Source: Gracilimonas mengyeensis (lineage in GTDB: Bacteria > Bacteroidota > Rhodothermia > Balneolales > Balneolaceae). From it: a DNA stretch of 57,365 bases. The translations under genes were made by a program, and so were the position numbers. The DNA lies in the NCBI RefSeq assembly GCF_900182705.1, contig NZ_FXTP01000022.1, positions 1 through 57,365 on the forward strand, read 5' to 3'. Shown piece by piece: positions 27,864-57,365 of the stretch; positions within the stretch are counted from its first letter, which is position 1; every line of letters starts with the position of its first letter. The notes under the pieces are model-generated. The model was not told the DNA's origin. It ran no database searches and saw nothing but the letters and a program-made list of their open reading frames with translations.

Positions 27864-28541
27864 CTATTTTTTCTTTTTACTCTTATGATAGTTTTTGATC
27901 CGGATTAACTCATCCTCCATGTCTTCCACCTCACCGGTGAGCTTGCCTTCTTTCATTCCATATCGGATGAGCAGCATATTCAGCACACGATCTTCACGGG
28001 AAGGTCCGGAATCGCCGGATGTCTTCTTTTGTATAAACTGTATTAATAGCCGCAGCAGTCCCACTTTGTATAAAAAAATCAAAACCAGTCCATACCAAAT
28101 CGCCTCAAAACTAACGGGCAATTGTAAAGATTCCATGATGTCGTTCAAGCTAATACCGATCAGCACAATGGCCGAGATTGTATAAACGACACCGTCCTTA
28201 CTGAGAAATTTTACAATTGGATTGGATGGGATATTTACAAAAGCACTGGTGTTAAAAAACCAGAACAGATAAAAAGCCAGCGAGATCAGGGTAGCTAATA
28301 GGGGATTCAAGGATACCAATACCAGGATAAAAAACAGCATCAAGGAAAGTCCATCCGCACTTTTCACCCAGGCATCGGCTTCTTCAATAATCTGCTCCAG
28401 CGGGTATTTATCGAGCAAGCCGGGAATATACTCCTCTATCCCCTCTGCCGTGATGCGGTACCAATTGCCATTAGATGTGGTAATGCCATCGGATAGCTCC
28501 AGCATTTGCCACTTACTACGTCCTCGTTGAAAATTTTCCAT
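27864..28541 (-). CDS. Uncharacterised membrane protein
   Basis: A 225-residue protein beginning MENFQRGRSKWQMLELSDG (ATG 28541; a TTG two codons upstream is less likely). A soluble N-terminal domain of about 65 residues includes WYRITAEGIEEYIPGLLDKYP. It is followed by hydrophobic helices at about 65-100 (LSLMLFFILVLVSLNPLL and onward), 115-135 (VVYTISAIVLIGISL) and 145-170 (YGLVLIFLYKVGLLRLLIQ), and a charged tail ending KSKKKK. No family recognised. It lies between a phosphatase and comF on the minus strand; the 30-bp gap to comF suggests one transcript. Confidence 0.75.
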   Translation of the reverse strand: MENFQRGRSKWQMLELSDGITTSNGNWYRITAEGIEEYIPGLLDKYPLEQIIEEADAWVKSADGLSLMLFFILVLVSLNPLLATLISLAFYLFWFFNTSAFVNIPSNPIVKFLSKDGVVYTISAIVLIGISLNDIMESLQLPVSFEAIWYGLVLIFLYKVGLLRLLIQFIQKKTSGDSGPSREDRVLNMLLIRYGMKEGKLTGEVEDMEDELIRIKNYHKSKKKK

Positions 28542-28571
28542 GCCCAAATATAGGCTTAAAATTACTTTGAT

Positions 28572-29282
28572 TCAGGCCTGTGCAACCGAAGCAATGGCAA
28601 TATTCCCGGAACCTGCAGATCTCAATGCCTTTGCCAGCTCAAATGTGGTGGCGCCGGTAGTAAATACATCATCGATAATCACACAAAACGCTTCTTCTAT
28701 TAAGTCGGGTCTCTGCACTTTAAAAGCTCCATTGATGTTTTCTCTTCTTTTCTCCAACGAAAAACCGGTTTGCGTGCGCGTATTCTTTACCCTTTTTATC
28801 GCCTGCTTTTTGAGAATATGCAAATTGGTTACCTCTGCCACTCCTCTGGTTACGTAAAAAGCCTGATTGTATCCACGTTTTTGTTCTTTTTTGGGATGAA
28901 GAGGAACTGGCACCAAACGTACTTTTTGATCTTCAATAGCTCTGATAAAAAAAGGATTTCGCAACAGAGTTTTACCCAGCTGCCGCCCTAAATCTACCCC
29001 TACGCCCGTTAAACGATTATATTTCAGCTGATGCAACAAATCCTGCAAGTGCCCGCCTTTATCAAAATTCCACAAGGCGTGCTGTAACACGATACCTTCC
29101 GGTAAAATAGTATCACTGCTTATTTGCTTGCCCTGCCGATTCGCCAGGTCAAATTTGTGTTCCAGGCAATGGGTGCAAACAAAGTGTTGGCTGGCCGATA
29201 CTTTCATCCCGCAAACCACGCAAATAGTGGGAAAAATAACCTCCGAAATACCCTCTTTTATTTTTTTAACAAGTGATTTCAT
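28572..29282 (-). CDS. comF: ComF-family phosphoribosyltransferase
   Basis: A 236-residue protein. The N-terminal zinc-finger-like part has ICVVCGMK and VCTHCLEH (two Cys pairs). The C-terminal phosphoribosyltransferase domain has the PRPP loop VIIDDVFTTGATTFELAKAL and an upstream LVPVPLHPKKEQKRGYNQAF, both diagnostic for ComF/GntX. In competent bacteria ComF is needed for DNA uptake, possibly through helicase partners; elsewhere its role is unclear. I prefer ATG 29282 (MKSLVKKIKEG) over the TTG at 29291. No other competence genes are visible here. Confidence 0.9.
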   Translation of the reverse strand: MKSLVKKIKEGISEVIFPTICVVCGMKVSASQHFVCTHCLEHKFDLANRQGKQISSDTILPEGIVLQHALWNFDKGGHLQDLLHQLKYNRLTGVGVDLGRQLGKTLLRNPFFIRAIEDQKVRLVPVPLHPKKEQKRGYNQAFYVTRGVAEVTNLHILKKQAIKRVKNTRTQTGFSLEKRRENINGAFKVQRPDLIEEAFCVIIDDVFTTGATTFELAKALRSAGSGNIAIASVAQA

Positions 29283-41000: not shown

Positions 41001-41508
41001 CCTCTGCTGCTTTTATATTGATACCGCTATTGGTAGCCAACCAAAGGTTTCCGTAATCATCTTCCGAAATACTGAAAACCGTGTTATCTGATAACCCCTT
41101 TGACTTGTCAAGATGATCTGGCAATTCTTTAATCGTTACAAAAGAATCCTTTTCAGGATCATACCTGTTTAGTCCCCCGCCCTGAGTTCCAATCCACAAC
41201 TGCTGCTTGCTATCCTCAAAAAGGGCAGATATATCATTTGATCCAATACTGGTACTATCGTTTTGCTTATGCCTGTAAATTTTTATCTCGTACCCATTGT
41301 ATTTATTTAGCCCATCCTGTGTGCCTATCCAGATATAGCCTTTGGAATCCTGTAAGATCTCATTACCAGTGCTTTGAGAAAGTCCTTCCCGGGTACTTAT
41401 ATGCCTGAAATTTATTTGGCCAGGATGTTGAGCCATTATAGCTTGCGCGGGAAATAAGGTGCCAGCAATAACTGAAAATAAGCCAATATATATCTTCAGT
41501 CCATTCAT
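38065..41508 (-). CDS. Two-component regulator propeller sensor histidine kinase, paralogue 1
   Basis: A 1,147-residue membrane kinase. After a signal peptide come 14 propeller repeats of the form ED-GNLWIGT-GGLNRYD (residues about 35-700, enough for two seven-bladed propellers). Then follow a Y_Y_Y domain (YSYKMDGFDEEWTDIG), one transmembrane helix near 805-825, a coiled coil, and an H-box GVLHNVGNILNSV (H891) that is not a standard HisKA. The ATPase has N-box NIFNNAKEAM, G1 EDNGHG and FTTKKRGHGFGLH. It ends after the ATPase, with no receiver or AraC domain as in Bacteroides hybrid sensors. Last gene of the four-gene operon; its ATG overlaps the upstream stop (ATGA). Ligand unknown, probably glycan- or nutrient-related by family. 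Confidence 0.92.
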   Translation of the reverse strand: MNGLKIYIGLFSVIAGTLFPAQAIMAQHPGQINFRHISTREGLSQSTGNEILQDSKGYIWIGTQDGLNKYNGYEIKIYRHKQNDSTSIGSNDISALFEDSKQQLWIGTQGGGLNRYDPEKDSFVTIKELPDHLDKSKGLSDNTVFSISEDDYGNLWLATNSGINIKAAEADTFQYVFSDPGDPNTISDNYIETLFKDSRGIMWIGTEHGLNRYLPNKDIFERIEQIPLDDKIYTITEDRQGDIWIGTDNNGLYKYDYTRDTFSQYLRKRDDSGSVPVNSVFSIIEDSRGVLWIGTESNGLMVFDRQNNRFYQYLNNYADPTSLSNDAVYSLYESQDQILWIGTYTGGINLVDRKVPQVQHFQHNPSDPKSLSSNFVQAFAEDQEGNLWVGTDGAGLNLFDRNTQSFEIFLHDPNNPNSIANNSILEMVSDKRGNVWIGSYNGGATRYNVASNTYTHYKYDPEEGGISQNHIYAMMVDRKNRVWVGTNGEGVDTLSAGGNRFAAFGTDSVRVSGGAINIGYVRSLFEDLEGNIWIGTYGSGIVKFDPSTEKFNAYNTYNSNISNNVILSIHQDHKNRLWIGTKGGGLNHYIPEADTFRVYNENVGMPSATIYGILEDDSGNLWVSTGEGVRRFNPDRKTVQAFGSQDGFQEGEFLVGAAFKDKEGYFYFGGINGFNRFYPDSIKVDSTVHPIVFTDFKLFNRSVKIGGDSPLKKHISEAESITLSYQSSVFTFEYATLNFNEQKSNRYSYKMDGFDEEWTDIGEQRSATYTNLDPGEYTFRVKAYNSDNVISEHEASVDIIITPPFWETFWFYLIVGGVIAAAGFSVYRYRVRSIRERNIELERKVEKRTSELDKRNNELKQTLEDLETTRHELIEKAHKAGMADIATGVLHNVGNILNSVNTSAALIEDRLDKSKIKNLEKANDLLRQQLHDIESFIVDNPKGKQLLQYYLKLEEPLKEEQKNITELSKRLSGKIDLIKDVISAQQNYAMTSANSEEHTLSEIVDEAFMLNAGSSERHSIQVLKNYQSFAPIICQKTKLIHVLVNIFNNAKEAMSKNHRNDKVLKINLTEDDSRVYLSIEDNGHGITEKNLNKIFNQGFTTKKRGHGFGLHSSANYIQEMGGKIKVESDGEGKGARFIMSFKRADVD

Positions 41509-44500
41509 GCACTTTGTCCGTTGTTCTTATTCCCTGCTTTAACGGGATTTGCCGGCAGCTCATTTATTTCTGTTGGAAAACTTAAAATGATACTTAGCCC
41601 AGATGTATCCTGCCTGTTTTTGGCCGTCATGGTACCCCCCATTTCTGTTACATAGTTAGCACTGCTATGCAGACCAAAACCGTGGCCCTCTTTTTTGGTT
41701 GTGAAGCCGTGGCTAAAAATTTTGTCAACATGTTCCTTATTTATACCTGTGCCATTATCGGTGATCTCTAAAAATGGCTTTCTGCTCATTTTGATACACG
41801 CGCGCCACTATCTCTTTATCCAACTTACCCGCCTCATTAATAGCATCTTTGGCATTTTTAAAGATATTTATGAGCACATGCACCAACTTAGTTTTCTGGA
41901 TCAATACTCCCGGTGTTTCTTCCACTTTTTTAGTAATCCTGATGCCGTGACGAGATAATGAGGCCCCATAAATGGTAAGGGCATCCTCCAACACCTGATC
42001 CAGTTTTGTCTGTTCACTATTTAACCCTACACTTGCATAATTTTGCTGAGCTGCAATCACACCGGTTATCAAATCTACTTTTTTACTTATACGCTCACTG
42101 TTCTCTTTCAGGGTTTCAACCTCGTGGCGAATCGATGCATCCAATTTTTGATAATAGGCAATTAGTTTTTTTCCTCTGGGGTCATGATTTAGAAACTCTT
42201 CCAGGTGATCAGCATGTTCCAGTAATAACTTATTGGCTTTAAACAGGCCTTCAAATTTTGGCTTGCTTAAAATATCCGCACTGATACTATTCGAAGTTCC
42301 AATGCTGTTTAATACGTTGCCAATGTTATGTACCACGCCGGTTGCAATGTCTGCCATACCTGCTTTATGAGCTTTCTCAATTAACTCACTTCGTGTTTCC
42401 CTCAGGTCATCCAGCGCTTTCTCCAGGTCTTTATTTCTCTGATTCAGTTCGGATGTACGCTCGTCTACCTTTTGAATCAGCAGTCTGTTTTGCTTTGTGA
42501 TCTGGCGCACACGTACCCGGTATATTCCAAAAATGCTGCCGCCGGCAAACAGCAAAACTACCAGGTAAAACCAATAGGTTTGCCAAAATGGAGGCGTTAC
42601 GGTTAGAGCCAGACTTGTTTCTTCACTCCAGTCACCATCCAAACTTGAAGAACGGACCCTCAACACATAATCTCCCGCACTCAGGTTTGTGTAGGTAGTA
42701 CTTCGTTTGTTTCCTACCTCATTCCATTCTTCCTCAAATCCTTCCAACAGGTAAGAGTAGCGCACCCCTTTTATCTCATTGTAATTTAGCGCAGCATACT
42801 CAAATGTTAGCACACTGGCTGAATAGGGTACAGTAATTTCACTGGTTTGGCTTATGTGTTTCTTTAGAGGACTATCCGGGCCTGGGGTAACAGTATTATT
42901 GAATATCTTGAAATCGGTAAACATGACTGGATAGGAGGAAGAATCAGTACGAATGCTATCCGGATGAAACCTATTAAAGCCATTTATTCCGCCAAAGTAC
43001 ATATACCCCTGTTGATCTTTGTAATAAGCCAATGCATTAAATTCATTGCCTTGTAAACCATCCTCCAGGTAAAAATTTTGGAAAGACTTTGTTTCCGGAT
43101 CAAAACTTGAAATCCCATTGTTGGTGCTCAGCCACAGTCTGCCCCCGTCATCTTCCAGAATACCTTTCACTGCATCACTTGAAAGCCCGTCATCGGAATT
43201 GAATGAAGTGAACCTGAGACTATCACGGTCGAACAAATTAAGACCGTCTTCCATAGTCCCAATCCAAAAATTTTCACGTTGGTCTTCATGCAGTGTCAGC
43301 ATGATATTACTTCGAAGGCCATGATCTCCCTCATAAAAATTCCAGACGCCCTCATTTACAAGATCAACTAACTTAAGTCCGCCGCCATAAGTTGCCACCC
43401 AAAAATTGTTTTTGGTGTCAATCAGGATATCACGGACTACCCCTTCAAGAAGCTGATACTTTGAAAATTCTTCAGTTTTTGGATCGAACTTACAGATACC
43501 ACCACCATTGGTTCCCACCCAAAGGTCTTCATTTTGATCTTTATACAGGGCAAATACATCGTTGTGGCATAGGCTGGTACTGTCTCCACGGATGTGTTTG
43601 AAGTGTGTAAATTCTTTTGTTTTAACATTATACCTGCTTATTCCACCACGATAGTATCCTATCCATATGTAATCCTCCACTCCTTGCAACAAAGCCAATA
43701 CAACATCACTAGACAAACTATTTTCATCCCTTGGATCATGCCTTAACGCCTGGAAAGTTTTCTCTTGGCGATTGAAAAGGTTCAGGCCTCCCCCATCCGT
43801 ACCTACCCACATATTACCGTTTCTGTCCTCAAGGAAAGAGGTGACAGAATTGGTACTTAACGGTTGGGACAGATTTTTATCGTATTTATAGAGTTCAAAC
43901 TTCTGCTTCTTCCGGTCTATGTAGTTTATCCCCCCTGAATAGGTTCCCACCCATAAAATGTGCTCAGAGTTTTCAAAAATGTCATAAATTGCATTGCTGT
44001 TCAGACTGTTGGGATCGTCCAGGTTCTGTTTGTAATGATAGAATGACTCGGTTTTATAATCGAACACATTTAAACCATTATTTTCAGTACCTATCCAAAG
44101 TAGCCCCTGATTATCTTCCAGTATGCTGAAAACTGCATTTCCGCTTATACTTCCCGGGTCATTACTGTCATATACATACCTGGTTAGGCTTTCCGTCTCC
44201 CGGTTATATCGTACTAACCCATTTTTGGTACCAGCCCAAAAGTTGTTCCTTGAATCATCGTACAACACAAGCACATTATTTATTCTGTTGGCCGGGTCAT
44301 CCGTTTCTTCGGTAAAATGCATAAACTCCTCGTTTACCGGATCCCACAAATTAAGTCCATTATCCGTGCCTATCCACAAAACCCCTTCTTTATCTTCATA
44401 AAGATAGTTAATGTAATTGCTGCCTAATCCGCTATCTGCTTCACCTGAAGTCTTTATTTGTATGAACTCGTCTTTATCGCGGTCATAAATATTTAAACCG

Positions 44501-44979
44501 TTGTAGGTTCCTATCCATAAGCTACCCTCTCGGGTTTCCAGTATACTGGTGATAGAATTATCACTTATTCCCGCATCCGGATCGGTATAATCAATTTTAA
44601 ATCTTCGGAAGCTATCTTCATCTCGGTTGTACATATTTAGGCCGGCCCCGGTAGTCCCAATCCAAAGGTTGCCTCGCTTATCTTCATAGATTGCACTGAT
44701 ATTATTCCCGCTGATACTTTTTGGGTTATCCGGATCATGCCGATAAACCGTAATATCATACCCATTGTATTTGTTGAGCCCGTTTCCGGTACCAAACCAC
44801 ATGTAGCCTTGAGAATCTTGGTAAATTACCTGTCCTGTACTTTGGGAAAGGCCTTGTTCTTGTGTAAGATGGCTAAAGTCCAAATCCCCTGGCCATTGCG
44901 CGTAGCCTGGCAATGCTATTACGAAATGCAGCCCTATAAGGCACAGTACACGGATGATATGTAGGTTAGTAAGCCTCAA
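41505..44979 (-). pseudogene. Propeller sensor histidine kinase, paralogue 2, frameshifted in the ATPase domain
   Basis: Same architecture as its neighbours: signal peptide, 14 propeller repeats, Y_Y_Y, transmembrane helix, H-box VVHNIGNVLNSI with H884. It starts with TTG at 44979, overlapping the upstream stop. The main frame ends at 41755 (KAIFRDHR-stop), just before the G1 box. The missing end (FLEITDNGTGI, FTTKKEGHGFGLH) is in another frame from 41789 to 41505. The whole span is 3,475 nt, one more than a multiple of three. The switch point sits at a run of five T on the minus strand (41770-41774). Gain or loss of bases there by slippage or sequencing error would explain it; the paralogues favour two missing T. 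If real, the kinase lacks a complete ATP-binding domain. Confidence 0.85.
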
Positions 44980-47900
44980 GCCTCTTCTTTGGTATTGCCT
45001 ATTGTTTTGCTCTTACGAGAGGAGGCCGACGGGAATATAAGTGTAAAGACAGCCCCTCTTTTATCATTATTACTGACGGTTAATTTTCCACCCATTTCTG
45101 TCATATAGTTCGCACTGCTGTGTAAGCCAAAACCATGTCCTTTTTTCTTGGTAGTAAATCCATGGGTGAAGATTTTTTTTAGATCTTCGTTCTTTATTCC
45201 TGGCCCGTTATCTGCAATTTCAATAAATATTTTGTCTGCTTTTTGATATAACCGAATACTGATTTTTTTCTGGGCAAAATTAGATTCGAGTAATGCATCT
45301 TTAGCATTTTTAAGCAGATTTACGATGACGTGAACTAATTTCGTTTTTTGAATTACCGCCCTTTCTACCGGTTCAATATTTTTTTCAATGTTGATGCCAT
45401 GGCGATCCATAGAAGTGGAGTAAATAGTCATAGCGTCATCAATTACCACGCTTAAATCAGCCAGTTCTTCGTTAGCCCCGGCTCTGGCGTAGGATTGTTG
45501 GGCCCCAATAATATCGTTTATCAAAATTACTTTCTTTTCAAGCCTTTTATTATGCTCTGTAAGTAGCTGATATTCTTCTTTTAAATTACTATCCAGCTTC
45601 AGATAGTACTCCATCAGCTTTTGCCCTTTAGGATTGTGCAGTAAAAACTCTTCCAGATTGTCACTGTGTTGCTCCAAAAGCGCGTTGGCCCGAAATAATT
45701 TCTTCAATTTTGAACTTCTCAACAGATCGGAGGTAAGAGTGGTGGAGGTGGTAACACTGTTTAGCACATTCCCGATGTTATGGAGCACTCCTGTGGCGAT
45801 ATCGGCCATGCCGGCTTTGTGGGCATTTAACACCAACTCCTCTTTCGTTTCTTGCAAGGCCTCCATGGCTTTCTTCAAATCCTTGTTACTTTCTTCCAAC
45901 TCAGATGTCCGTTTTGCTACTTGCTGCTCCAGCATTTTGTTGATTGAGGCCATCCGACGGGTACGATATCTTACGCCTCCAAAAATTAACCCAACCGATA
46001 GTATTCCCACTATACCGTAGAACCAGTACGTGCGCCAAAAAGGCGGCGTTATCACAAGCTGAACTTGTTTGATTTCTTCTCCCCAGATATTATCGCTATT
46101 GGCAGTTTTAACCATGAAGATATATTCACCGGGATCAAGGTTGGTATAAATAGCGGTGTTCTGATTGCCTACTTCGTTCCATTCCTGATCAAAACCTTCG
46201 AGCTTGTAGGCATACGTATACCCAAGATCCGGGTTAAAATTGAGTGCCGAATATTTAAAAGAAATAATGCTGGCCGAATGCGGCAATACAATTTCCTTAA
46301 CCTGATTAATATGCTTTTTTAAAGGAGAGTTGCCACCAATCTTGACAGATTTATTATTCAGCAGAAAATCAGTCAGAGCAATATTTGATACTTTACTGTT
46401 TTCACTAATACTGTCAGGATGAAAACTGTTAAAGCCATTGATTCCACCAAAATAAATGGTACCGTCTTCCATTTTGTAGGCCGCCCTTGGTTTAAATTCA
46501 CGGCTCTGCAATCCATCACTAACATTGTAATTTTTAAACGTACCGGTAACAGGGTTAAATCTTGACAGACCATTATTGGTACTTAACCAAAGATTACCAT
46601 TTTCATCTTCAATAATTGAATTGATGATATCATTTGGCAATCCGTCTGCGGTGGTGTAAGATTCGAAAAGGTCTTTTTCCGGATTGTATCTGTCCAGGCC
46701 TCCCCCCTTAGTACCTGCCCAAATTGTCCCATTGGAAGACTCATAAATATCCAGCACCACACTGCTGCTCATGGAGCCCTCTTGCATGTTGTATCTTTTA
46801 AGTAGTCCACTTTTGGGTTGAAAGTTTACTACGCCCCCTCCATAGGTGGTTACCCAGATGAAACCCTGCTGATCCTCAAAAATGTCTCGAATGTAATAAA
46901 GCGGAAAATAGAGGCTGTCTGACTGTGGATTCCAACTTTCAAAAACACCGCGATCTTCGTCTACCAACTTGCTGAGCCCGTTTCCATTTGTGCCTGCCCA
47001 GATATATCCATCACTGTCTTCCATCACAGCAAAAACTTGATTATGACTTAGACTCTGTGGGTCCTCAGGGTCGTGTAAATAGGTTTTAAAATCTGAGCTT
47101 TCCCTGTCGTACCGAACCAAACCACCGTTATAAGTTGCTATCCATATAATGCCCCGCCGATCTTCAATCATATCAAAAATAACATCACTTGAAAGACTGT
47201 TTGGATTACTTTCCTCCTTTCTGATATAGGAAAATTTCTCTGTCTTCGGCTTGAAGAGGTTAATCCCGCCTCCGTCCGTCCCTATCCATAATGACTCTCC
47301 ATCTGGTTTTAGAAAAGAAATGATGGAGTTTTCATTGAGGGTGCCTTTCGTACCGGGTCTGTTCTTATAGTGCTTAAATTTATTTTGTTTGCGGTTTAGA
47401 ATATTTAATCCGCCATCAAAAGTCCCGATCCATAAAATTTTATCCCTGCTTTCATATAGACTATATATGGAATTGCTATTGATTCCATTTAGCTTGGCTT
47501 CTGAGTACTTGTAGTGAAAAGGGCTTCGGCTACCGGGCGGAATGGCAAACAACCCGTCATTTTCCGTACCAATCCAGCAAACACCATCACTGTCTTCAAG
47601 AATGGTCATAATTGCAGCGGATTCCGGAATAATGGGTTCCAGGTCCGGCACTCGAAATTCTTCAACCTCACGATCAAAAACATATAAACCGCTTTCGGTA
47701 CCAATCCACAGATTATGCCGGGAGTCTTCGTACACTACATTAACATAGGTCCCGGATTGTCTGTGATTCTCCTCAGGCAGATAAAATCGGTCAAAGCTAA
47801 CCGAATCTTTGTGCATTCTATTTAACCCATCATTTGTACCTACCCAGATCTGGTTATTACTATCCTCAAAAATATCAGTGATATAATTTCCACTAAGACT

Positions 47901-48434
47901 GCTGCTGTCTCCGGGCTCTGAAAAATAGTTTAAAAAAGAATAGTCTTTGCGGTTCATCAGGTTAAGTCCCTTATAAGTACCCACCCAGATATTACCTTTA
48001 CTATCTTCCAGCATGTTATGCACGGTATTATCACTTAAACGACCAACATGCCGGTCTTCTGCCGCTGTAATGCGTCTAAAATGATCCTTGTCACGGTCAT
48101 ACAGGTTCAACCCACCCCAGTCTGTTCCAATCCAGAGATTGTTCTTGCTGTCTTCATATACAAACTCAATCTCATTGCTGCTCAACGTTTTGGGATCATC
48201 CTGATCGTGCTTGTAAACTACAATGTTCTTGTTTTGACCTTCATATTTATTTAGGCCTTCCAGCGTCCCAAACCACATGAACCCCTCGTGATCCTGGTAT
48301 ATCGTTTCAACAGTGCTTTGTGAGAGACCATCGTCGGGGGTCAAATACCTGAATTCCGGAAGCAACAGGTTTTGTGCATTGAGGGGCAACCCCAGCAAGG
48401 CAAACAAAATGATAAAATTGAACTTGGAGCCCAT
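44976..48434 (-). CDS. Propeller sensor histidine kinase, paralogue 3
   Basis: A 1,152-residue intact member of the same family: signal peptide (MGSKFNFIILFALLGLPLNA), 14 propeller repeats, Y_Y_Y (YAYKLEGFDQEWNEVG), transmembrane helix near 795-815 (FYGIVGILSVGLIFGGV), H-box VLHNIGNVLNSV (H885), N-box NLLKNAKDAL, G1 ADNGPG and FTTKKKGHGFGLH. The Cys-free propeller repeats differ in surface loops from paralogues 1 and 2, suggesting different ligands. Second gene of the operon, 15 bp after the hybrid kinase, with a 4-bp overlap into paralogue 2. It too lacks an output domain, so it must pass its signal to a separate receiver. Confidence 0.93.
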   Translation of the reverse strand: MGSKFNFIILFALLGLPLNAQNLLLPEFRYLTPDDGLSQSTVETIYQDHEGFMWFGTLEGLNKYEGQNKNIVVYKHDQDDPKTLSSNEIEFVYEDSKNNLWIGTDWGGLNLYDRDKDHFRRITAAEDRHVGRLSDNTVHNMLEDSKGNIWVGTYKGLNLMNRKDYSFLNYFSEPGDSSSLSGNYITDIFEDSNNQIWVGTNDGLNRMHKDSVSFDRFYLPEENHRQSGTYVNVVYEDSRHNLWIGTESGLYVFDREVEEFRVPDLEPIIPESAAIMTILEDSDGVCWIGTENDGLFAIPPGSRSPFHYKYSEAKLNGINSNSIYSLYESRDKILWIGTFDGGLNILNRKQNKFKHYKNRPGTKGTLNENSIISFLKPDGESLWIGTDGGGINLFKPKTEKFSYIRKEESNPNSLSSDVIFDMIEDRRGIIWIATYNGGLVRYDRESSDFKTYLHDPEDPQSLSHNQVFAVMEDSDGYIWAGTNGNGLSKLVDEDRGVFESWNPQSDSLYFPLYYIRDIFEDQQGFIWVTTYGGGVVNFQPKSGLLKRYNMQEGSMSSSVVLDIYESSNGTIWAGTKGGGLDRYNPEKDLFESYTTADGLPNDIINSIIEDENGNLWLSTNNGLSRFNPVTGTFKNYNVSDGLQSREFKPRAAYKMEDGTIYFGGINGFNSFHPDSISENSKVSNIALTDFLLNNKSVKIGGNSPLKKHINQVKEIVLPHSASIISFKYSALNFNPDLGYTYAYKLEGFDQEWNEVGNQNTAIYTNLDPGEYIFMVKTANSDNIWGEEIKQVQLVITPPFWRTYWFYGIVGILSVGLIFGGVRYRTRRMASINKMLEQQVAKRTSELEESNKDLKKAMEALQETKEELVLNAHKAGMADIATGVLHNIGNVLNSVTTSTTLTSDLLRSSKLKKLFRANALLEQHSDNLEEFLLHNPKGQKLMEYYLKLDSNLKEEYQLLTEHNKRLEKKVILINDIIGAQQSYARAGANEELADLSVVIDDAMTIYSTSMDRHGINIEKNIEPVERAVIQKTKLVHVIVNLLKNAKDALLESNFAQKKISIRLYQKADKIFIEIADNGPGIKNEDLKKIFTHGFTTKKKGHGFGLHSSANYMTEMGGKLTVSNNDKRGAVFTLIFPSASSRKSKTIGNTKEEA

Positions 48435-48449
48435 GGTTTCAGCATTGAA

Positions 48450-50234
48450 TTATGACTCTTCAGGAGAATTCTCCGTGGTCCACTTTCTTATTTTATCAAT
48501 CAAGTATTTTTTTGCGATAGGTTTTCCAAGAAAATCATCTACACCGGCATCAAAAATGCGCTTCTTATCTTTAGGCATTACGCTGGCCGAGATAGCAATT
48601 ATGGGAGTATAAGTGTCCCTTTCTTCTCCAAATTTCCGGATTAACTGTGTTGCTTCAACTCCGTCTATACCAGGCATATATACGTCCATGATGACGATAT
48701 CGAAATGCTCTTTCTTATATTTTTCAACCGCTTCTTTACCGTTTTTAGCAAGGGTGATATGCACACCATCTTCCGCAAGCATTCGCTGCGCAAGCAATTG
48801 ATTAGACTGGTTATCTTCTGCCAATAAAATATGGAGCTCACTGTCACCGTCAGTCATCTGGCCTTCCAGTATTTCATCTCCTAAATCGTCCCTGTCCTCA
48901 GGTTTTTCCTGCATTCTCACTTTAGACAGCTGCACTTCAAACCAAAATTCAGATCCCTCTCCTTCATTACTTTCTACGCCTACTTTTCCTTTCATTAATT
49001 CTGAAAGCTGCTTACAAATGGACAAGCCCAAACCGGTTCCACCATACTTCCGGGTAGTTGAGGCGTCTGCTTGTGAGAAGGGATCAAATATCTGTTGTCT
49101 TTTCTTTTCCGGGATACCAATACCAGTATCTTTAACCGCAAAACGGAAGTTTATTGCTTCTTCATCCTCTGAGAGAATCTCAGCTTTAAGCTCAATTTCA
49201 CCCTCTTCAGTAAATTTAACGGCATTGTTGCCAAAATTGAGCAGAATCTGGCGAATGCGCATTGGATCCCCGAGCACTTCTTCCGGTATCCCCGGATCTA
49301 TACTGGATTTAACCGCTACCCTCTCTTTATGCTCTGCAGAAAAAGCGATTAACTTGCGCAATTCCTCAATACTTTCTTTCAGGTCAAACGGAATTTCCTC
49401 TACTTCCATCTTGCCTGCTTCTACTTTCGCCAGGTCTAAAATATCGTTGATGATATTCATCAGGGCTTCCGCGCTGTATTTTACCAGTTCGGCATATTCT
49501 TTTTGTTCTTCATCCAGCGGGGTTTCCATCAGTAAATCATTCATCCCAATGATGCCATTCATCGGGGTACGTATTTCATGACTGACGTTGGCTAAAAATT
49601 CACTTTTCGCTTCTGAAGCCTGCTCCGCTTTTTCCTTCATGATGCGATATTCAGATACCATCCGAGTAAGTTCACTGGTACGTTCCTTAACCTGCTCTTC
49701 AAGCTTCTCAGTGTATTGTAACGTTTCCTGCCGGAGCTGCCATTTACGGGTAAGGGTCAATGCCGTTTGTTTTAAAGCAGTAGCATCAAAAGGCTTTTTC
49801 ATGAACAGCAATTTGTCCGAAGTTCCCAACTCGGATAAAATCTGCTCCCAGGAATAGTCAGAATAGGCCGTACAAATAACTATTTCAGTATTATCATGTT
49901 TTTCCCATATTTTTTTGATGGTCTGTATGCCATCCATCCCCGGCGGCATGCGCACATCCATAAAAATCAGTGAAAAGGGATTGCCACTGTTAGCGGCATC
50001 ATCCGCCATTTTAATAGCTTCTTCCCCCTGATAGGCGTGATTGATGTCATAGTGTATCTGAGATACTTCCAGTGTATTATCACTGGTATCAGTAGAGTCT
50101 GAAAATAATTCTTCTTCCATTGCACGAAGCTCATCATCATCTTTTGATGAAATACCCGCTAAAATAGACTGTATGTCTTTATGAATAGATGCGTTATCAT
50201 CTACAATAAGAATGTGTCGCTTTTCCTCTTCCAT
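48450..50234 (-). CDS. Hybrid histidine kinase: receiver - HisKA - HATPase - receiver
   Basis: A 594-residue soluble signalling hub. The N-terminal receiver has phosphoacceptor D93 ([14 protein letters not shown]), with an acidic insert of about 30 residues at 30-60. A coiled coil (160-210) leads to a canonical HisKA with H219 ([15 protein letters not shown]), an ATPase with [18 protein letters not shown] and [11 protein letters not shown], and a C-terminal receiver with D517 ([15 protein letters not shown]). No membrane segment, input domain or DNA-binding domain. It heads the operon, following a GGAG ribosome-binding site, and offers two receivers that the three receiverless propeller kinases lack. 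That they phosphorylate it is my inference. Confidence 0.94.
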
Positions 50235-50647
50235 AGAACTCCGTTATCCTAACAAAATCTTGTCTGTTTACCCAAATACCAACTGCCCACCTTGGATATT
50301 AATTTCTTCTCCGATTGAAGGTAGAAAAAAAAATTTTATAATTAAAAAAACTTAATATTTCTTTTTTGTTATCGGCAATCATCCAGAAAAATTAAATGAT
50401 AGGTCCCGAATTTTACGCCATAAAAACCCTAACGGCGCAGTATATGATTGGCCTACAATATGATTAGTAGAAAAGTAAACCGATTGAGTACCTTTTACTG
50501 TGTTTTATACACAGAATTTGTTAGTTGTATTCCGAATTATTGTTGTGCTGTTTTTTTTAATTTTTTCTATTGATTAGCCCATTTCAAGCAGATGTACCAA
50601 ACCTGCCTGTGCTGCCCTTATAACTAAATGGCTAAGTGTGTTTATTC
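50235..50647. other. AT-rich gap upstream of the kinase operon
   Basis: This 413-bp stretch must hold the promoter of the four-gene operon and the 3' end of glgC. The only clear structure is a small hairpin CTGTGT-TTTAT-ACACAG at 50499-50515. I see no gene, no convincing -35/-10 pair and no repeat-family copy. Confidence 0.5.
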
Positions 50648-51922
50648 TTATAAAATAGTACCGTCAGGGATTACCGTACCTTTTTTGACGATAATAATAC
50701 CGTCGCGTACGTAATGGTATTTAAAATCTCCGTCTTCCAGGTGTTTGCCTCCTACAATCCGTACGTCGTTACCAATGCATACATTACGGTCGATGATACA
50801 GTTGCTTATATAACAACGATGTCCAATACCCATGGCCGGGTTTTCTGGTTTAGCTTTCTCAATATCAGCCCGGTCCTGGAAAATATCATTCCCCATGATG
50901 ATTGAGTTTTCGATGGTGCTTCCTTTACCAATGCGTGAACGTATACCCACTACCGAACGCTCAATCCTGCTGGCCTCAATAATACATCCCTCTGCAATAA
51001 GAGCATGCTCCATCGTGGTTCCCGTCATTTTTGAGGGAGGAAGCAGGCGAGCGCGAGTGTATATAAAATTTTCGTTGTCATAAAGATTGAAATCCGGAAT
51101 CGTATCTGCCAAAGCCAGATTGGCTTGAAAGAAAGACTCAATCGTTCCGATATCCGTCCAGTAATCTCCAAATTCATAACTACAAACACGCTGTCCGCCT
51201 TCTACACATTTTGGAATGAGCTCTTTTCCAAAGTCAGTAGCATCGGGATTATCGGCAAAAAGTTTTTTCAGCACTTCGCGGTTAAAAATGTAAATCCCCA
51301 TTGAGGCAAGATAGTCTTTACCTTGTTCTTTATAGGGCTCGGGAACTTCAGATTTCCACTTTTCCAATTCATCCAGAGAGGGTTTCTCTACAAAGTTTTC
51401 TATATAACCGTCACTATTGGTTTTCATGATGCCAAAGCCGGTAGCATCCTGGGCATTTACCGGGATAGTTGCCACTGTCAGGTCCGCATCGTTTTCCTTA
51501 TGACGCTCCAGCATTTTCCGGTAATCCATCTGGTAAAGCTGATCGCCCGACAAGATGAGCACATGATCGTGTTCATGATTCTCCATATGGTGCAGCGATT
51601 GCCGTACCGCATCGGCCGTACCCTGAAACCAACCCGTATTATTTGGGGTCTGCTCAGCTGCCAAAATATCCACGAAACCGCTGCTGAATACATCAAAATT
51701 ATAGGTGTTTTTTATATGCCGGTTCAGTGAGGCTGAATTAAACTGGGTTAGCACATAAATACGGCGGATATTGGAATTCAAGCAGTTAGATATGGGAATG
51801 TCTACAAGGCGATATTTACCCCCTACCGGAACTGCTGGCTTTGAACGGTGATCGGTTAATGGATAAAGACGTGTACCGCGTCCTCCCCCAAGAATTACTG
51901 CAATTACGGATGAACTTTTCAT
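50648..51922 (-). CDS. glgC: Glucose-1-phosphate adenylyltransferase
   Basis: A 424-residue nucleotidyltransferase that makes ADP-glucose from glucose-1-phosphate and ATP, the committed step of bacterial glycogen synthesis. GGGRGTRLYPLTDHRSKPAVPVG is the glycine-rich substrate loop, FGIMKTN and FVEKP line the sugar site, ILSGDQLYQMDY carries the metal-binding Asp, and a left-handed beta-helix (residues about 290-424, ending VKKGTVIPDGTIL) carries allosteric contacts. Downstream of glgA on the same strand (140 bp), hence probably co-transcribed. Confidence 0.96.
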   Translation of the reverse strand: MKSSSVIAVILGGGRGTRLYPLTDHRSKPAVPVGGKYRLVDIPISNCLNSNIRRIYVLTQFNSASLNRHIKNTYNFDVFSSGFVDILAAEQTPNNTGWFQGTADAVRQSLHHMENHEHDHVLILSGDQLYQMDYRKMLERHKENDADLTVATIPVNAQDATGFGIMKTNSDGYIENFVEKPSLDELEKWKSEVPEPYKEQGKDYLASMGIYIFNREVLKKLFADNPDATDFGKELIPKCVEGGQRVCSYEFGDYWTDIGTIESFFQANLALADTIPDFNLYDNENFIYTRARLLPPSKMTGTTMEHALIAEGCIIEASRIERSVVGIRSRIGKGSTIENSIIMGNDIFQDRADIEKAKPENPAMGIGHRCYISNCIIDRNVCIGNDVRIVGGKHLEDGDFKYHYVRDGIIIVKKGTVIPDGTIL

Positions 51923-52062
51923 ATTGAATGTATTTTATATTTCCCTTTAATAAGTCTCTTTATAGCTATACACTATATTTAATAGAATAAACAGCTATGT
52001 ATATTGTGTGAAATTGTATTGATTTAAGAAGGTTTAACACTCCGGTTTGGCTGGAGTTAAAC

Positions 52063-53505
52063 TCAGGCTGTACTTCTTAGTCCGTTGTACATTTTCAGAT
52101 ATTCCCTGGCAGAACTCTTCCATGAGAAATCAAGCTTCATAATTCGTTTTAGTACTTCCGAGTACCGGGCTTCGTCTTTATACAACTCCACAGCCCTGCT
52201 TAAGGCCTCTGATGCCGCATCAAGATTAAAATCGCTGAAAGTAACTCCATATCCTTCATCTTCAGAAATATCCCTTACGGTATCTTTCAACCCTCCAACA
52301 GCTCGTACGATAGGAACCGTTCCATAACGCATAGCAAACATTTGATTTAACCCGCATGGTTCTACGCGTGAAGGCATTAAAATAAAATCTGATCCGGCGT
52401 AAATTTGATGGGCCAGTTTCTCGTTGTATTCCAGCGTGGCATCAAAAAATCCTACATGATCATCTTGCATGCTAGCAAATACCTGGTGCAACTGAGGATC
52501 GCCCGTGCCCAATAATACAAAATTAACTTCCTTGTCGGAATACATCACCCGCTTAAAAAGGTCCGGGAGTAAATCGGCGCCTTTTTCCCGTACCAATCTT
52601 CCGATAAAAGAAATAGTTGGCCGGTCAGGGTTTAATCCAAATTCTTTACATAAATGGGCTTTATTCTCCAGCTTACCTTTCTTTCGATTCCGGAAGCTGA
52701 AATTATATTCAATCAGCTCATCTGTGGCAGGGTCCCAGACTTCCGTGTCAATGCCGTTTACAATACCGGTGGATTTATCTTTCTCGTGATCAAATAACAT
52801 CTCTAAGCCGCTGCTGTTATGAGCAAGCTCATCCATATAAGTATTAGACACCGTGGTAATCTTCCAGGCGTTTTTAAGCCCTGCCGCCAGGGAATTTAAT
52901 CTTCCGTTCCAGTCTAACAAGCCGATATTATCTAAATTGAAAGCCGGCAATAACTTAAATTTATCAATGTCATGCTCCCCATGGTATTCGGCATTATGAA
53001 CCGTGATGACAGAGGGCGTATCCGCCATATCCCGATAACGATTGCAATGGGCCATCATAAACGGTACCAGTGCGGTGTGATGATCATGGCAATGCACGAT
53101 ATCCGGCCTAATATTCTCGGCCTTCATCCACTCCATTGCAGCCGTCTGAAAACTTACAAAGCGTTCCAATTCATCCCAATACCCGTGGCCTGACCAGGGA
53201 TCAATATAGATGCCGGGACGATCAAAACGCCCGGGGATATCAATCACATAAAATGGAAATCCCAGTTTGTCATCTTTCATGCGCTGCACGGAAAAATGAA
53301 CCGGTTCGGCGGCCATAGAAAAAGCGCCCTCAAAAACCTTTTCAAATTCCTGTTTTCCCATCCAGTGATTGTCGTATTTAGGAATCACTACTTCACACTC
53401 TTCCCCCAACTGATTCAGATATTTGGGAAGTGAGCCAACTACATCTGCCAGCCCGCCTGCTTTGGCGGCCGGATAACATTCCGCGCTCAGATGAATAATG
53501 TGCAT
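52063..53505 (-). CDS. glgA: Glycogen synthase (ADP-glucose)
   Basis: A 480-residue GT5 glycosyltransferase that elongates alpha-1,4-glucan from ADP-glucose. AECYPAAKAGGLADVVGSLPKYL contains the KxGG ADP-glucose loop (K15), and the C-terminal half has SFIGRLVREKGADLLPD and the ExxGLxxxE-type motif SRVEPCGLNQMFAMRYGT. Length is standard. It precedes glgC on the minus strand. The stop codon overlaps a stem-loop (GTTTAAC-TCC / GGA-GTGTTAAAC, about 52032-52062) in the intercistronic space, which could stabilise or partially terminate the transcript. Confidence 0.96.
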   Translation of the reverse strand: MHIIHLSAECYPAAKAGGLADVVGSLPKYLNQLGEECEVVIPKYDNHWMGKQEFEKVFEGAFSMAAEPVHFSVQRMKDDKLGFPFYVIDIPGRFDRPGIYIDPWSGHGYWDELERFVSFQTAAMEWMKAENIRPDIVHCHDHHTALVPFMMAHCNRYRDMADTPSVITVHNAEYHGEHDIDKFKLLPAFNLDNIGLLDWNGRLNSLAAGLKNAWKITTVSNTYMDELAHNSSGLEMLFDHEKDKSTGIVNGIDTEVWDPATDELIEYNFSFRNRKKGKLENKAHLCKEFGLNPDRPTISFIGRLVREKGADLLPDLFKRVMYSDKEVNFVLLGTGDPQLHQVFASMQDDHVGFFDATLEYNEKLAHQIYAGSDFILMPSRVEPCGLNQMFAMRYGTVPIVRAVGGLKDTVRDISEDEGYGVTFSDFNLDAASEALSRAVELYKDEARYSEVLKRIMKLDFSWKSSAREYLKMYNGLRSTA

Positions 53506-53603
53506 AATGTTTTTGTAACCTTAAGTGTCCTTATTCGTTATCAATAAATATTAATGTGAGAAATAAGAAATCTTTAGGCATCTTCCAAAAGAAAAGTGGG
53601 GGA

Positions 53604-53739
53604 TTTGGTGATATAGTGATATAGTGATTTTGTGTAAATTAAAAGGTTACTGTATCATTTCAATGGACACAACTTATCCTTAGAGATAACGTCCCCATCG
53701 CCTCCTTCACTATATCACCAAATCACCATATCACTCAAA
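53604..53739. repeat. Inverted pair of GTGATATAG-type repeats
   Basis: A plus-strand unit at 53604-53634 and a minus-strand unit at 53707-53739 can pair around a 73-bp loop. The second matches the copy at 32579 nearly perfectly on the opposite strand. They sit just upstream of the ABC transporter start codon. No gene in 53506-53750. Confidence 0.65.
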
Positions 53740-53750
53740 TCAAAAAAACT

Positions 53751-54671
53751 ATGGCAGTAATTGATGTTAAGAACGTGATTAAGGCCTTTGGAAAAACCAA
53801 GGCGGTTAATGACGTTAGCTTCGAGGTACATAAAGGCCGGATTTTTGGATTGCTTGGTCCCAATGGGGCTGGCAAAACTACCACCATCCGTATGATTAAT
53901 CACATCCTGAATCCAGACTCCGGTGAAATCACCATAAACGGACAACAAGCCAGCCCGGAAACCCAGCGGATGATTGGCTACATGCCGGAAGAGCGCGGCC
54001 TGTATAAGAAGATGAAGGTGATGGACCAGCTGCTCTATCTCACCCAACTCAAAGGAATGAGCGCCTCCGAGGCAAAAAAGGCCATCAACTACTGGCTGGA
54101 CCGCTTTGACGCCTCCGACTGGAAGAAGAAGGAAGTGAGTGAGCTCTCCAAAGGAATGTCGCAGAAAATTCAATTCATTGCCACTATTGCGCACGATCCG
54201 GACATTTATATTTTTGACGAACCTTTCAGTGGTCTGGATCCCATCAACAGCGAAACCCTGAAAGAAATTATTATTGAGCTGCGGGAAAATGGTAAAACTA
54301 TTCTATTCTCCACCCACCGTATGGAACAAGTGGAACAGATGTGTGATGACATTTGCCTGTTTAACCAAGGGGAAGCCGTACTGACCGGCAAATTGCGCGA
54401 AATCAAAGCCTCCTTTGGCAAAAACACCATCAACCTGGAATTTGAAGGTGACGGAGCCTTTCTGGATCAGCTGGAAGATGTGCGCATCAACAATCGCTCT
54501 ACCAATTTTGCAGAAATTCGGGTACTGAACGGACAGAATATGCAGGACATCCTAAAGCTGGCCATGGAACATGCGGAGATTCACAAGTTCGAACGCATTC
54601 AACCCACCCTCAACGAAATTTTCATCTCAACCGTAGGCGAAGACAACCTCAAAAAAGCGGAGATCCAATAA
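53751..54671 (+). CDS. ABC transporter ATP-binding protein (NatA-like exporter)
   Basis: A 306-residue ATPase. Walker A is GPNGAGKTTT (residues 37-46), the signature is ELSKGMSQKIQF, Walker B with catalytic Glu is IYIFDEPFSGLDP, and the H-loop is FSTHRMEQVEQM. A C-terminal DUF4162-like regulatory domain (INLEFEGDGAFLDQ, ERIQPTLNEIFI) matches Na+/drug exporters of the NatA/CcmA type. It pairs with the permease beginning 2 bp after its stop. The substrate is unknown. It lacks a peptidase C39 domain, so it is not by itself a double-glycine-peptide exporter. Confidence 0.93.
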   Translation: MAVIDVKNVIKAFGKTKAVNDVSFEVHKGRIFGLLGPNGAGKTTTIRMINHILNPDSGEITINGQQASPETQRMIGYMPEERGLYKKMKVMDQLLYLTQLKGMSASEAKKAINYWLDRFDASDWKKKEVSELSKGMSQKIQFIATIAHDPDIYIFDEPFSGLDPINSETLKEIIIELRENGKTILFSTHRMEQVEQMCDDICLFNQGEAVLTGKLREIKASFGKNTINLEFEGDGAFLDQLEDVRINNRSTNFAEIRVLNGQNMQDILKLAMEHAEIHKFERIQPTLNEIFISTVGEDNLKKAEIQ

Positions 54672-54673
54672 TC

Positions 54674-55972
54674 ATGAGTTTTCACAAAATTTGGCTGGTA
54701 CTGAAGCGAGAATATCTCACAAGGGTAAAAAGTAAAGGCTTTATCATTGCTACGGCACTAACGCCTCTGGCCTTAGTTGCTTTAGTTGGTATCCTTGTTT
54801 TTGTCAACATCACTGATGCCGAGGTCGAGAAACAAATCGGGATATCAGATAACACAGGAGTGTTGTACGATCGGTTAACCGAAATCAATGAAACTCGCTA
54901 TTTGGATGTAAGCAATCTTTCTGAAGACAGCCTTCGTTCACAAGTGCTTTCGGAAGATATTGATGGCTTTATTGTCCTCGATGATTCCGTTTTGACATAT
55001 GGTAAAACTCCCGTCATGATATATGGAGGGAGCGGCGGCATTGGCTTCATATCTTCCGTGCGTTCTGATCTCCGAGATGTTATCCGGGAGGAACGATTGT
55101 CTCGGGAAAATGTATCTGAAGACGTACGTAATATCTTTGAAACCCGGACCGGCCTCGAGGCCATAAAACTCACCGAAGAAGGAGAGTCAGAGGATAACAC
55201 GGTAGCAGCCTCTATGGTAGGTTTTGCCTTGGGCTTTATGATCTTTATGGGAATTTTCATTTATGGATCGGTTCTTATGCGGGGCGTGATTGAAGAAAAA
55301 ACCAACCGCATTGTGGAAGTCATTGCTTCCTCAGTGAAGCCTATTGAGTTGATGTATGGTAAGCTTTTTGGAGTGTTAGGCATGGCCGTAACCCAATTTG
55401 GTATTTGGATTGCATTCTACATTGGCCTCTCACTGGCAGCGGCACCCGTTGCCGCTATGATTATGCAGGCGCAAATGGAAAGCATGCCTGAAGAAGCGGC
55501 AGAAGCAACCGCCTCCTCCTTTGATCCATCTTCGCTGGAACAATTGGCTATAGACCCTTCTATATTCCTTTATTTCTTACTGTTTTTCATCGTAGGATTT
55601 TTAATCTACAGTGCCATTTTTGCAGCCATAGGAGCTGCTGTTGAAAACGAGCAGGATTCCCAACAATTCATGTTTCCAGTAGCGGTTCCTATCATGCTTG
55701 GCTATTTCTTCAATGTTAGAGTAATGGAATCCCCCGATTCAGCATTATCCATCTTCACATCCCTCTTTCCTCTTACCGCACCAATCAATATGGTTACACG
55801 GATTGCCACTACTGAAGTTCCTTTACTTCAGATAATATTATCCCTGGTTTTAATGGTACTCACTTTCTTTGGCATCATGTGGTTGGCTGCCAAAATTTAT
55901 CGCGTAGGTATTTTGATGTACGGCAAAAAGCCTTCTTTTAAAGAATTAGGGAAATGGATTAAGCAAAGCTGA
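54674..55972 (+). CDS. ABC transporter permease (NatB-like)
   Basis: A 432-residue ABC-2 permease with an N-terminal helix (about 20-43), a large extracytoplasmic domain (about 45-180) and five further helices in the C-terminal half (VGFALGFMIFMGIFIYGSV; LGMAVTQFGIWIAFYIGLSL; FLYFLLFFIVGFLIYSAIFAAIG; ISLFPLTAPINM region; IILSLVLMVLTFFGIMWLA). MRGVIEEKTNRIVEVIASSVKPIELMYGK is the coupling motif shared with NatB. Co-transcribed with the ATPase. Cargo cannot be inferred. Confidence 0.93.
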   Translation: MSFHKIWLVLKREYLTRVKSKGFIIATALTPLALVALVGILVFVNITDAEVEKQIGISDNTGVLYDRLTEINETRYLDVSNLSEDSLRSQVLSEDIDGFIVLDDSVLTYGKTPVMIYGGSGGIGFISSVRSDLRDVIREERLSRENVSEDVRNIFETRTGLEAIKLTEEGESEDNTVAASMVGFALGFMIFMGIFIYGSVLMRGVIEEKTNRIVEVIASSVKPIELMYGKLFGVLGMAVTQFGIWIAFYIGLSLAAAPVAAMIMQAQMESMPEEAAEATASSFDPSSLEQLAIDPSIFLYFLLFFIVGFLIYSAIFAAIGAAVENEQDSQQFMFPVAVPIMLGYFFNVRVMESPDSALSIFTSLFPLTAPINMVTRIATTEVPLLQIILSLVLMVLTFFGIMWLAAKIYRVGILMYGKKPSFKELGKWIKQS

Positions 55973-55981
55973 TTGATATAT

Positions 55982-56015
55982 AAAAAAAGAGAAAGGGTGA
56001 TTTTACCCTTTCTCT
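55982..56015 (-). terminator. Intrinsic terminator of the double-glycine peptide gene
   Basis: A perfect 11-bp stem AGAGAAAGGGT / ACCCTTTCTCT (55988-55998 / 56005-56015) with a 6-nt loop, followed on the minus strand by a run of seven T. It also lies just past the permease stop and may stop transcripts from both sides. Confidence 0.9.
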
Positions 56016-56055
56016 ATTCATTTCTTGAAATATATTAGCAAGTACTTTACGTGGT

Positions 56056-56250
56056 TTAATCCATTAATTCACACACTGCATAATAACCAGCCGCACCACC
56101 TGCCATAATACCACCGGCTAGTGGTCCGCCCAACATAAATGCGGCTAATCCTATACTAGCTAGAGTATGTGCATTTCGTGCAACATCGCACACAGGATCA
56201 ACATCTCCACCTTCTATTTTCTCCATTTTATTTACTGACAGTTCTTTCAT
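56056..56250 (-). CDS. Double-glycine-leader peptide, bacteriocin-precursor-like
   Basis: A 64-residue peptide with a 15-residue leader MKELSVNKMEKIEGG ending in a GG motif of the type cut by C39-peptidase ABC exporters. The leader has the E/L/K periodic pattern seen in ComC and bacteriocin leaders. The 49-residue core starts DVDPVCDVARNAHTL and ends CELMD. It contains a Gly/Ala-rich hydrophobic segment, LGGPLAGGIMAGGAAGYY (residues 41-57), typical of class II bacteriocin cores, and two cysteines (C21, C60) that could form one disulfide. It has its own terminator and a candidate promoter. No immunity gene or C39 exporter is in the window, so export and activity are unproven. A signalling peptide is the alternative. 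Confidence 0.65.
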   Translation of the reverse strand: MKELSVNKMEKIEGGDVDPVCDVARNAHTLASIGLAAFMLGGPLAGGIMAGGAAGYYAVCELMD

Positions 56251-56282
56251 AGCTTAATCATTGAGTTACAATTAACGCTATT

Positions 56283-56311
56283 TATATAAATAATATATTA
56301 AATTATTTCAA
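56283..56311 (-). promoter_or_regulatory. Candidate promoter for the double-glycine peptide
   Basis: On the minus strand TTGAAA (56306-56311) and TATATA (56283-56288) are separated by exactly 17 bp, about 33 bp upstream of the ATG at 56250. The match is sigma-70-like, whereas many Bacteroidota use a different consensus, and the region is very AT-rich, so chance is possible. No clear ribosome-binding site precedes the start codon. Confidence 0.35.
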
Positions 56312-56390
56312 TTATAATATATATCATACAATGCAATATTTGGTAAATAAATTTTAACTAACCACAAATCATAACTAAAGAGAGATATTT

Positions 56391-57125
56391 ATGATAAGTG
56401 TTTATAAAAATATTTCGTCCAAATTCATTATAACATTAGCACTCATTGTTAGTATTCTCTTGGGATGCGGTATATCAAATAGCGATGATACCGCAAAGAT
56501 GATTTTCGAATATGATTTCAGGCAACAACCAGCCGAATGGGAAGCTTTTTTTACCAATTACAATGTGGGCTGGGAAGAAAAAATGGAGTTAAGTTCCGAA
56601 TACCGAAATCTGCCAGAACCACTTGATAGTCAGGATAGCGGCCACTATATCAGCGCAGTAAACAACAGCGACGATGTCAAAATGCTGTTCCGCAAACAGG
56701 TGGATGGTCTGGAAGCTAATACCACCTATAAGGTAGCATTTGAAGTTAGTTTCGCCACCTCTGCACCCTCCGGATGCGTCGGTATTGGCGGAGCACCCGG
56801 AGAGGCGGTAAAAATCATCGCCGATGCCAGCACCACCCAACCCCAACCCATCTTAAATGAAGAAAAGGATTATTATTTGCTAAATATTGAACAGCAGAAT
56901 GATCCTCAGCAGTGGTACCAAAATGTCATTATGGGACACATTGCTAACAGCCGCGAATGTGAAGAAGGCGAGCAATATGAAATAAAAACATTACAATCCG
57001 ATCAACATACAACGGTAACCTCCGACGAAAACGGCCGTGCATGGCTGCTATTTGGTTCCCGCTCAGGCTTTGAAGGAGAAACCGAATTGTACTATACGTA
57101 CTTTAAAGCCACCTTCAATAAGTGA
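56391..57125 (+). CDS. Lipoprotein, unknown function
   Basis: A 244-residue protein with a lipobox (SILLGC, Cys27), so lipid-anchored. The rest looks like a beta-sandwich with motifs FEYDFRQQPAEWEAFFTNY, ADASTTQPQPILNEEKDYYLLNIEQ, DENGRAWLLFGSRSGFEGETELYYTYFKATF and three further cysteines. Similar proteins occur in marine Bacteroidota and Rhodothermota and carry no known function. It is divergent from the double-glycine peptide gene, sharing a 140-bp AT-rich region, but nothing in the sequence ties it to immunity. Confidence 0.78.
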   Translation: MISVYKNISSKFIITLALIVSILLGCGISNSDDTAKMIFEYDFRQQPAEWEAFFTNYNVGWEEKMELSSEYRNLPEPLDSQDSGHYISAVNNSDDVKMLFRKQVDGLEANTTYKVAFEVSFATSAPSGCVGIGGAPGEAVKIIADASTTQPQPILNEEKDYYLLNIEQQNDPQQWYQNVIMGHIANSRECEEGEQYEIKTLQSDQHTTVTSDENGRAWLLFGSRSGFEGETELYYTYFKATFNK

Positions 57126-57251
57126 TGTGAGTTCGAAATAAAATGTACATTTTGACGGTCTCATATGTTAGAGGGAGAACTATTTACCAACAGGCAAAAG
57201 GTTGTATAAGTAGCTTGTGATCTTTACTCTCTGCCTGTTTTATTGGAATCG

Positions 57252-57334
57252 AGCCAGCCTGGTACCTTCCGTATTGGTCTATGCACTGCCTGCAGGCAGA
57301 TGCACTTCGTCAGGTATATCCAGGCTGGTTTTTT
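57252..57334 (+). terminator. Terminator-like stem with nested palindrome
   Basis: AGCCAGCCTGG (57252-57262) pairs with CCAGGCTGGTT (57320-57330), and a run of six T closes it (57329-57334). Inside the loop is the perfect palindrome CTGCCTGCAGGCAG (57286-57299). It is probably the transcript end of the lipoprotein gene. No gene in 57126-57365. Confidence 0.6.
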
Positions 57335-57365
57335 CTGCCGTTGAACCTCAACAGTACCAACAGAG

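Follow-up and report, generated by a model that had tools for sequence, protein, structure and literature searches.

Bacteroidetocins, proposed as class IIf bacteriocins, are the closest described systems to the peptide gene reported here. As described by Coyne et al. (2019, PMC6671954), the precursors have a leader of 15-16 amino acids ending in GG and a core of 35-50 amino acids with at least two Cys. They are encoded with a protein of five transmembrane segments (five-TM protein), a C39 exporter and, mostly, a thiol oxidoreductase, and this four-gene set is enough for toxin production in E. coli. The four bacteroidetocins assayed were active on Bacteroidota, and the target of bacteroidetocin A is BamA (PMC6671954, PMC8546649). 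Small peptide genes of this sort are easily overlooked in annotation; the bacteroidetocin peptide was unannotated in 16 of 35 regions (PMC6671954). Predicted bacteriocins are already known from Balneolaeota, where one genome carries 20 predicted homologues of bacteriocins of other types (zoocin, colicin etc.) and no antiSMASH bacteriocin cluster (PMC6243061). The double-glycine kind was not met in the literature searched by the names Balneolaceae, Balneolota and Balneolaeota together with bacteriocin.

The window, that is, the whole stretch of DNA analysed, is a contig of 57,365 nucleotides from Gracilimonas mengyeensis, a member of the Balneolaceae. It holds a small gene that is rather probably an orphan class II-type bacteriocin-like precursor, processed in trans by a C39 exporter encoded on another contig, C8. 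Bacteroidetocin-type gene sets were found in Balneolaceae, and with the window gene the ability of a single C39 exporter to serve a precursor encoded elsewhere can be tested cleanly.

The precursor gene and its surroundings

The features of the locus are as follows.

56056 to 56250, minus strand: precursor gene, 64 codons plus stop, from the open reading frame listing, a leave-one-out profile (E 6.5e-10) and PF10439 (E 2e-5; 24.9 bits, below the curated 27.1)
56206 to 56250, minus strand: double-glycine leader of 15 residues, MKELSVNKMEKIEGG, from the leader pattern and TIGR01847 (15.4 bits, cut-off 15.7)
56059 to 56205, minus strand: predicted mature core of 49 residues, hydrophobic, with two Cys and a net charge of -4, from sequence composition
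55988 to 56015, minus strand: intrinsic terminator, a perfect stem and, on the minus strand, a tract of six T, with convergent genes on either side, from stem search and folding
56251 to 56390, no strand: AT-rich stretch separating divergent genes and presumably holding the promoter, 18% GC against 44% for the window
57157 to 57365, no strand: non-coding end of a multi-copy IS110-family element within which the contig stops; the boundary is approximate and the repeat also stands at the start of C8

The 64-codon precursor gene is real. It starts with ATG at 56250 and stops at 56056, and its product of 64 amino acids begins with exactly the 15-residue leader ending in GG that had been read from the sequence alone. 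Residues L, M, I, G and G occupy positions -12, -7, -4, -2 and -1 of the leader, which we take to be the canonical double-glycine spacing, and the leader has the features that define the class (about 15 residues, hydrophobic residues at -12, -7 and -4, and GG or GA at -2 and -1). The hydrophobic Gly/Ala-rich core with two Cys was likewise borne out, with 37% Gly+Ala and the Cys being residues 6 and 45 of the core. An AlphaFold model of the precursor gives a helix at residues 27-63, with a pLDDT of only 56, which is weak.

The leader motif by itself is suggestive of a precursor, and a genome of 4.67 Mb is large enough for it to arise by luck. Dinucleotide shuffling of the window, to a total of 2.29 Mb, produced a single strict leader frame starting with ATG (a rate of about 0.025 per window, or about 0.4 per Mb), and six when any of three start codons was allowed. 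At the ATG rate about two would be expected in a genome of this size, which is the case for a chance frame with a leader-like start. A profile built from six other Balneolaceae precursors, three of them from C8, with the window sequence left out, nevertheless found the window gene in a search of its whole genome at 41.6 bits. Up to E 10 its other matches were the three C8 precursors and a single one at 0.26. This independent match settles the question and places the gene beyond motif luck. The Pfam family PF10439 (Bacteriocin_IIc) matches residues 1-55 of the precursor, with a genome-wide E of 1.5e-4, and a terminator stands directly after the stop. Against this evidence a chance origin is very improbable. 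PF10439 matches 7 of the 13 precursors at E<=1, and the precursor's match to known families, judged from these sequence scores, is moderate.

On the minus strand TTTTTTATAT comes after the terminator stem of 11-12 pairs; the folding energy is -17.7 kcal/mol (z -4.4), a stability that 0 of 200 shuffles equalled. The perfect terminator of the sequence-only reading thus stood. The stem lies just outside the interval 56056-56311 to which it was credited and may serve both of the convergent genes between which it stands. The -35/-10-like pair proposed upstream did not survive: 5 promoter-like pairs were counted in 55500-56700 on both strands, against 4.9 expected, which is chance level. The spacer at 56251-56390 holds no Shine-Dalgarno-like site ahead of the precursor, whereas GAGG precedes 10 of the 12 sister precursor genes (by eye). 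Such a site is also missing from 25 of 29 other hand-picked frames of the window.

The exporter cluster and its relatives

The neighbouring ABC exporter had been said to lack the C39 domain, so that the processing enzyme would be elsewhere, and a genome without any C39 peptidase had been named as fatal to the proposal. The ABC pair adjoining the precursor is indeed of the ABC-2 type with no C39 match, and the genome contains one C39 match at E<=0.001, at C8:19314-19703 (E 3.1e-36). The exporter that bears it has 729 residues and the full C39-membrane-ATPase architecture. It matches the PCAT1 structure 4ry2 over residues 18-716 (E 3.6e-106), and its C27, H104 and D120 align with that structure; these are presumably the catalytic residues of the C39 peptidase. 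The exporter's neighbours on C8 include a thiol oxidoreductase (closest NCBIfam family ResA, E 8.5e-15, below cut-off), a five-TM protein, three sister precursors, ABC genes and an AraC-type HTH gene. The suggested search for further precursors with a like leader returned three, all beside the C39 exporter, and the exporter shares the genome of the window peptide and is linked to its relatives. Two Cys are present in two of the C8 precursor cores and only one in the third. Five transmembrane segments are predicted for the C8 membrane protein; of the five relatives compared, C8 included, four have this number and the other has four segments.

Some further features of this region were recorded (locus L020, C8 10000-29999). 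The leader of the sister precursor at L020 13635-13832 ends in AG instead of GG, inside the exporter cluster as it is. The cluster is adjoined by a secreted-looking small protein of 87 amino acids with three Cys (L020 16556-16819) and by a 6-bladed beta-propeller (PF17170; L020 15524-16504). Another propeller-like gene stands close to the cluster of genome G026 (L039 419-1414, by eye).

At E<=0.1 the precursor profile matched 8 of 92 family genomes, and 6 of these, the window genome included, have leader-bearing precursors. The match in G072 (E 0.084) was dropped, as it covered only model positions 33-70 inside a 423-amino-acid frame, as was that in G093 (E 0.015), which covered only positions 28-68 and had no leader frame. 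In all 6 precursor genomes, a precursor shares its contig with a C39 exporter no more than 6 kb away; 41 of the 92 family genomes have any C39 match. G026 has an additional precursor at the end of contig C85, with no exporter visible. A single-sequence search at E<=1 gave 17 matches besides the window, and only loci L003, L006 and L016 were kept as relatives. The genus genomes G001 and G003 had two matches each (best 0.178 and 0.133), which were set aside for having no leader start and for running in part through stop codons or within long frames. No precursor relatives were found in viral contigs and plasmids.

It had been proposed that homologues which conserve the core as strongly as the leader and are known structural proteins would speak against the reading; like the absence of a C39 peptidase, this did not come true. 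Over the 78 pairs of 13 precursors, mean pairwise identity is 54% in the leader and 26% in the core (shuffled cores, 21%), and the leader is the more similar part in 75 of the 78. Such a contrast is expected if one processing leader is shared by cargoes that vary. The window core aligns with only 2 of the 12 other cores at a z above 2, and no close relative sharing it was found.

Similar gene sets with GG peptides are also present in other families of the phylum. The precursor profile matched 8 of 394 phylum genomes at E<=0.001, and 4 of the 8 do not belong to the Balneolaceae. Relatives of the exporter and of the five-TM protein lie near the precursors in three of the four outside loci, and the fourth is truncated where its contig ends. 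The three complete loci also have an oxidoreductase, found in two with the C8 query and in the third (L107) with an outside query. A five-TM scan of genome contigs gave 46 stretches fitting the pattern and 5 confirmed matches, in three Balneolaceae MAGs, Aliifodinibius salipaludis and Rhodohalobacter sulfatireducens; the two named species carry such exporter clusters. A plasmid search with a five-TM relative as query gave one distant match, from Flammeovirga. At E<=1e-5 the five-TM protein occurs in 29 of the 394 phylum genomes. Thirty such loci, 8 of them seeds of the five-TM profile, were surveyed with about 1.5 kb of flank each. Similarity to the C39 exporter appeared in 21 (in some only to the ABC domain, so that other ABC genes are counted), oxidoreductase similarity in 15, and a leader-like ATG frame in 10, some of these by evident chance. 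Neither exporter nor oxidoreductase lay within the flanks of 8 loci, so either five-TM proteins are not confined to this system or the genes are further away. At one locus that is not a seed (L123, G206 C95, around 28101-28745) an ATG at 2248 opens a frame with the leader MKELSLEKLENLEGG and a four-Cys basic core near the five-TM relative. By eye this peptide fits the published description, and it is possibly a true bacteroidetocin relative.

The orphan position and what may explain it

Within the contig examined, the window gene is an orphan. The description of it as a stand-alone peptide gene was upheld, as the locus yielded no exporter, five-TM protein, regulator or recognised immunity gene, and the genome's single C39 match and single five-TM match are both on C8. 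No oxidoreductase-like frame occurs in 48000-57365 (by eye), and Rfam found nothing in 55900-57365. The ABC-2 permease beside the precursor (54674-55972) is present in 10 of 10 genus genomes, with 69-75% identity in the other nine, and an ATPase gene adjoins it in 10 of 11 other loci, the eleventh of which starts at a contig end. None of the other 9 genus genomes has a related precursor at E<=0.1, and the ABC-2 pair was rejected as a partner since the permease is kept throughout the genus without the peptide. The divergent gene that follows the peptide encodes 244 amino acids with a lipobox (by eye). Of the 92 family genomes, 14 contain a relative of this gene, and the other nine of the genus give no match; it too was rejected, as only the window's own genome, of these 14, is among the 6 precursor genomes. 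Further along the contig, at 38065-50234 on the minus strand, three sensor-like genes stand in tandem (1147, 1074 and 1152 amino acids; repeats and a kinase-like C-terminus by eye), adjoined by a hybrid kinase-like gene of 594 amino acids.

The terminal repeat of the window contig occurs at 10 places in the genome, the window counted. Most are at contig ends, including the first 209 bases of C8. Contig C10 continues past the repeat into the beginning of a transposase of the IS110 family (PF01548, E 6.9e-7; 29.6 bits, cut-off 29). The precursor gene is 0.9 kb from this IS110-family end. The assembly, which breaks at this repeat, is in 33 contigs, and the window contig ends 1.1 kb from the gene; the true neighbourhood is therefore only partly visible.

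In the mechanism that we infer, the window leader would be read by the N-terminal C39 peptidase of the C8 PCAT exporter, which would cut after GG, and the hydrophobic 49-residue core would be exported. The two core Cys may form a disulfide, assisted by the thiol oxidoreductase encoded on C8. The orphan copy would be served in trans and may have been placed where it is by mobile DNA. Killing is the commonest role of peptides with double-glycine leaders, and the released core would most likely be antibacterial. Several features go against this account, among them the lack of a Shine-Dalgarno-like site, the acidic core, the lack of a close relative sharing the core, a PF10439 score just under the cut-off and the absence from the locus of an exporter, five-TM, regulator or recognised immunity gene.

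Some of these features suit a relic, a precursor copy carried off from the cluster by mobile DNA and now unexpressed. The gene stands alone near a repeated IS110-family end, it has no ribosome-binding motif of the kind that most sisters have, and its own genome is the only one of ten in the genus with a related precursor at E<=0.1. The intact frame, the canonical leader and the strong terminator behind it argue otherwise, and the missing motif counts for less given that most window frames examined also lack it; we regard a relic as unlikely. A pheromone-like secreted signal, using the same leader and export route and controlling the AraC-type regulator or the C8 cluster, appears more doubtful still. 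Double-glycine leaders and C39 exporters serve pheromones too, and ComA, which exports a competence factor, is among the structure matches of the C8 exporter. AraC-type HTH genes lie near the precursors in C8 and in the clusters of G026, G091, G102, G069 and G032, and the sensor-kinase-like genes of the same contig are about 6 kb off (by eye). A hydrophobic Gly/Ala-rich stretch of 49 residues is, however, long for a typical pheromone. No kinase or regulator frame lies in 53751-57365 (by eye), and several differing cores per cluster are better suited to a bacteriocin-like mixture. The sequence-only reading had offered a bacteriocin or a signal peptide; it is supported, with the bacteriocin as the likelier of the two.

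The favoured trans-processed bacteriocin could be part of a broader arrangement, in which one exporter cluster serves dispersed precursors and IS110-family elements move orphans that join the secreted mixture by keeping the leader. We consider this extension improbable. If true, it would be a plug-in route to a changing antibacterial repertoire.

Comparison with known systems

The window precursor resembles members of PF10439, class II bacteriocins with a double-glycine leader, in its match over residues 1-55 and differs from them in scoring below the family cut-off. Microcin V (PF17508) has a double-glycine leader too, and its core bears a disulfide. The match to that family is weak (E 0.056; 14.5 bits, cut-off 27) and probably reflects leader and composition. 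C39 (PCAT) exporters such as PCAT1 (4ry2, 6v9z) and ComA (8hf4) are the known counterparts of the C8 exporter, whose peptidase residues align with 4ry2; its pairing with the window peptide is a prediction.

The comparison with bacteroidetocins goes by features of the published description (PMC6671954). The 15-residue leader ending in GG and the 49-residue core with two Cys agree with it, as do the five-TM protein, thiol oxidoreductase and C39 exporter of the C8 cluster. In contrast to the described loci, the window gene lies outside any such gene region, the set being on C8 with the three sisters. Its core is Gly/Ala-rich and acidic (-4) with two Cys, whereas bacteroidetocins A and B have four Cys and core charges of +6 and +2 (PMC6671954). 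The window precursor is accordingly filed as bacteroidetocin-like, not as a bacteroidetocin, because the peptide has the described features and its own locus fails the described neighbourhood.
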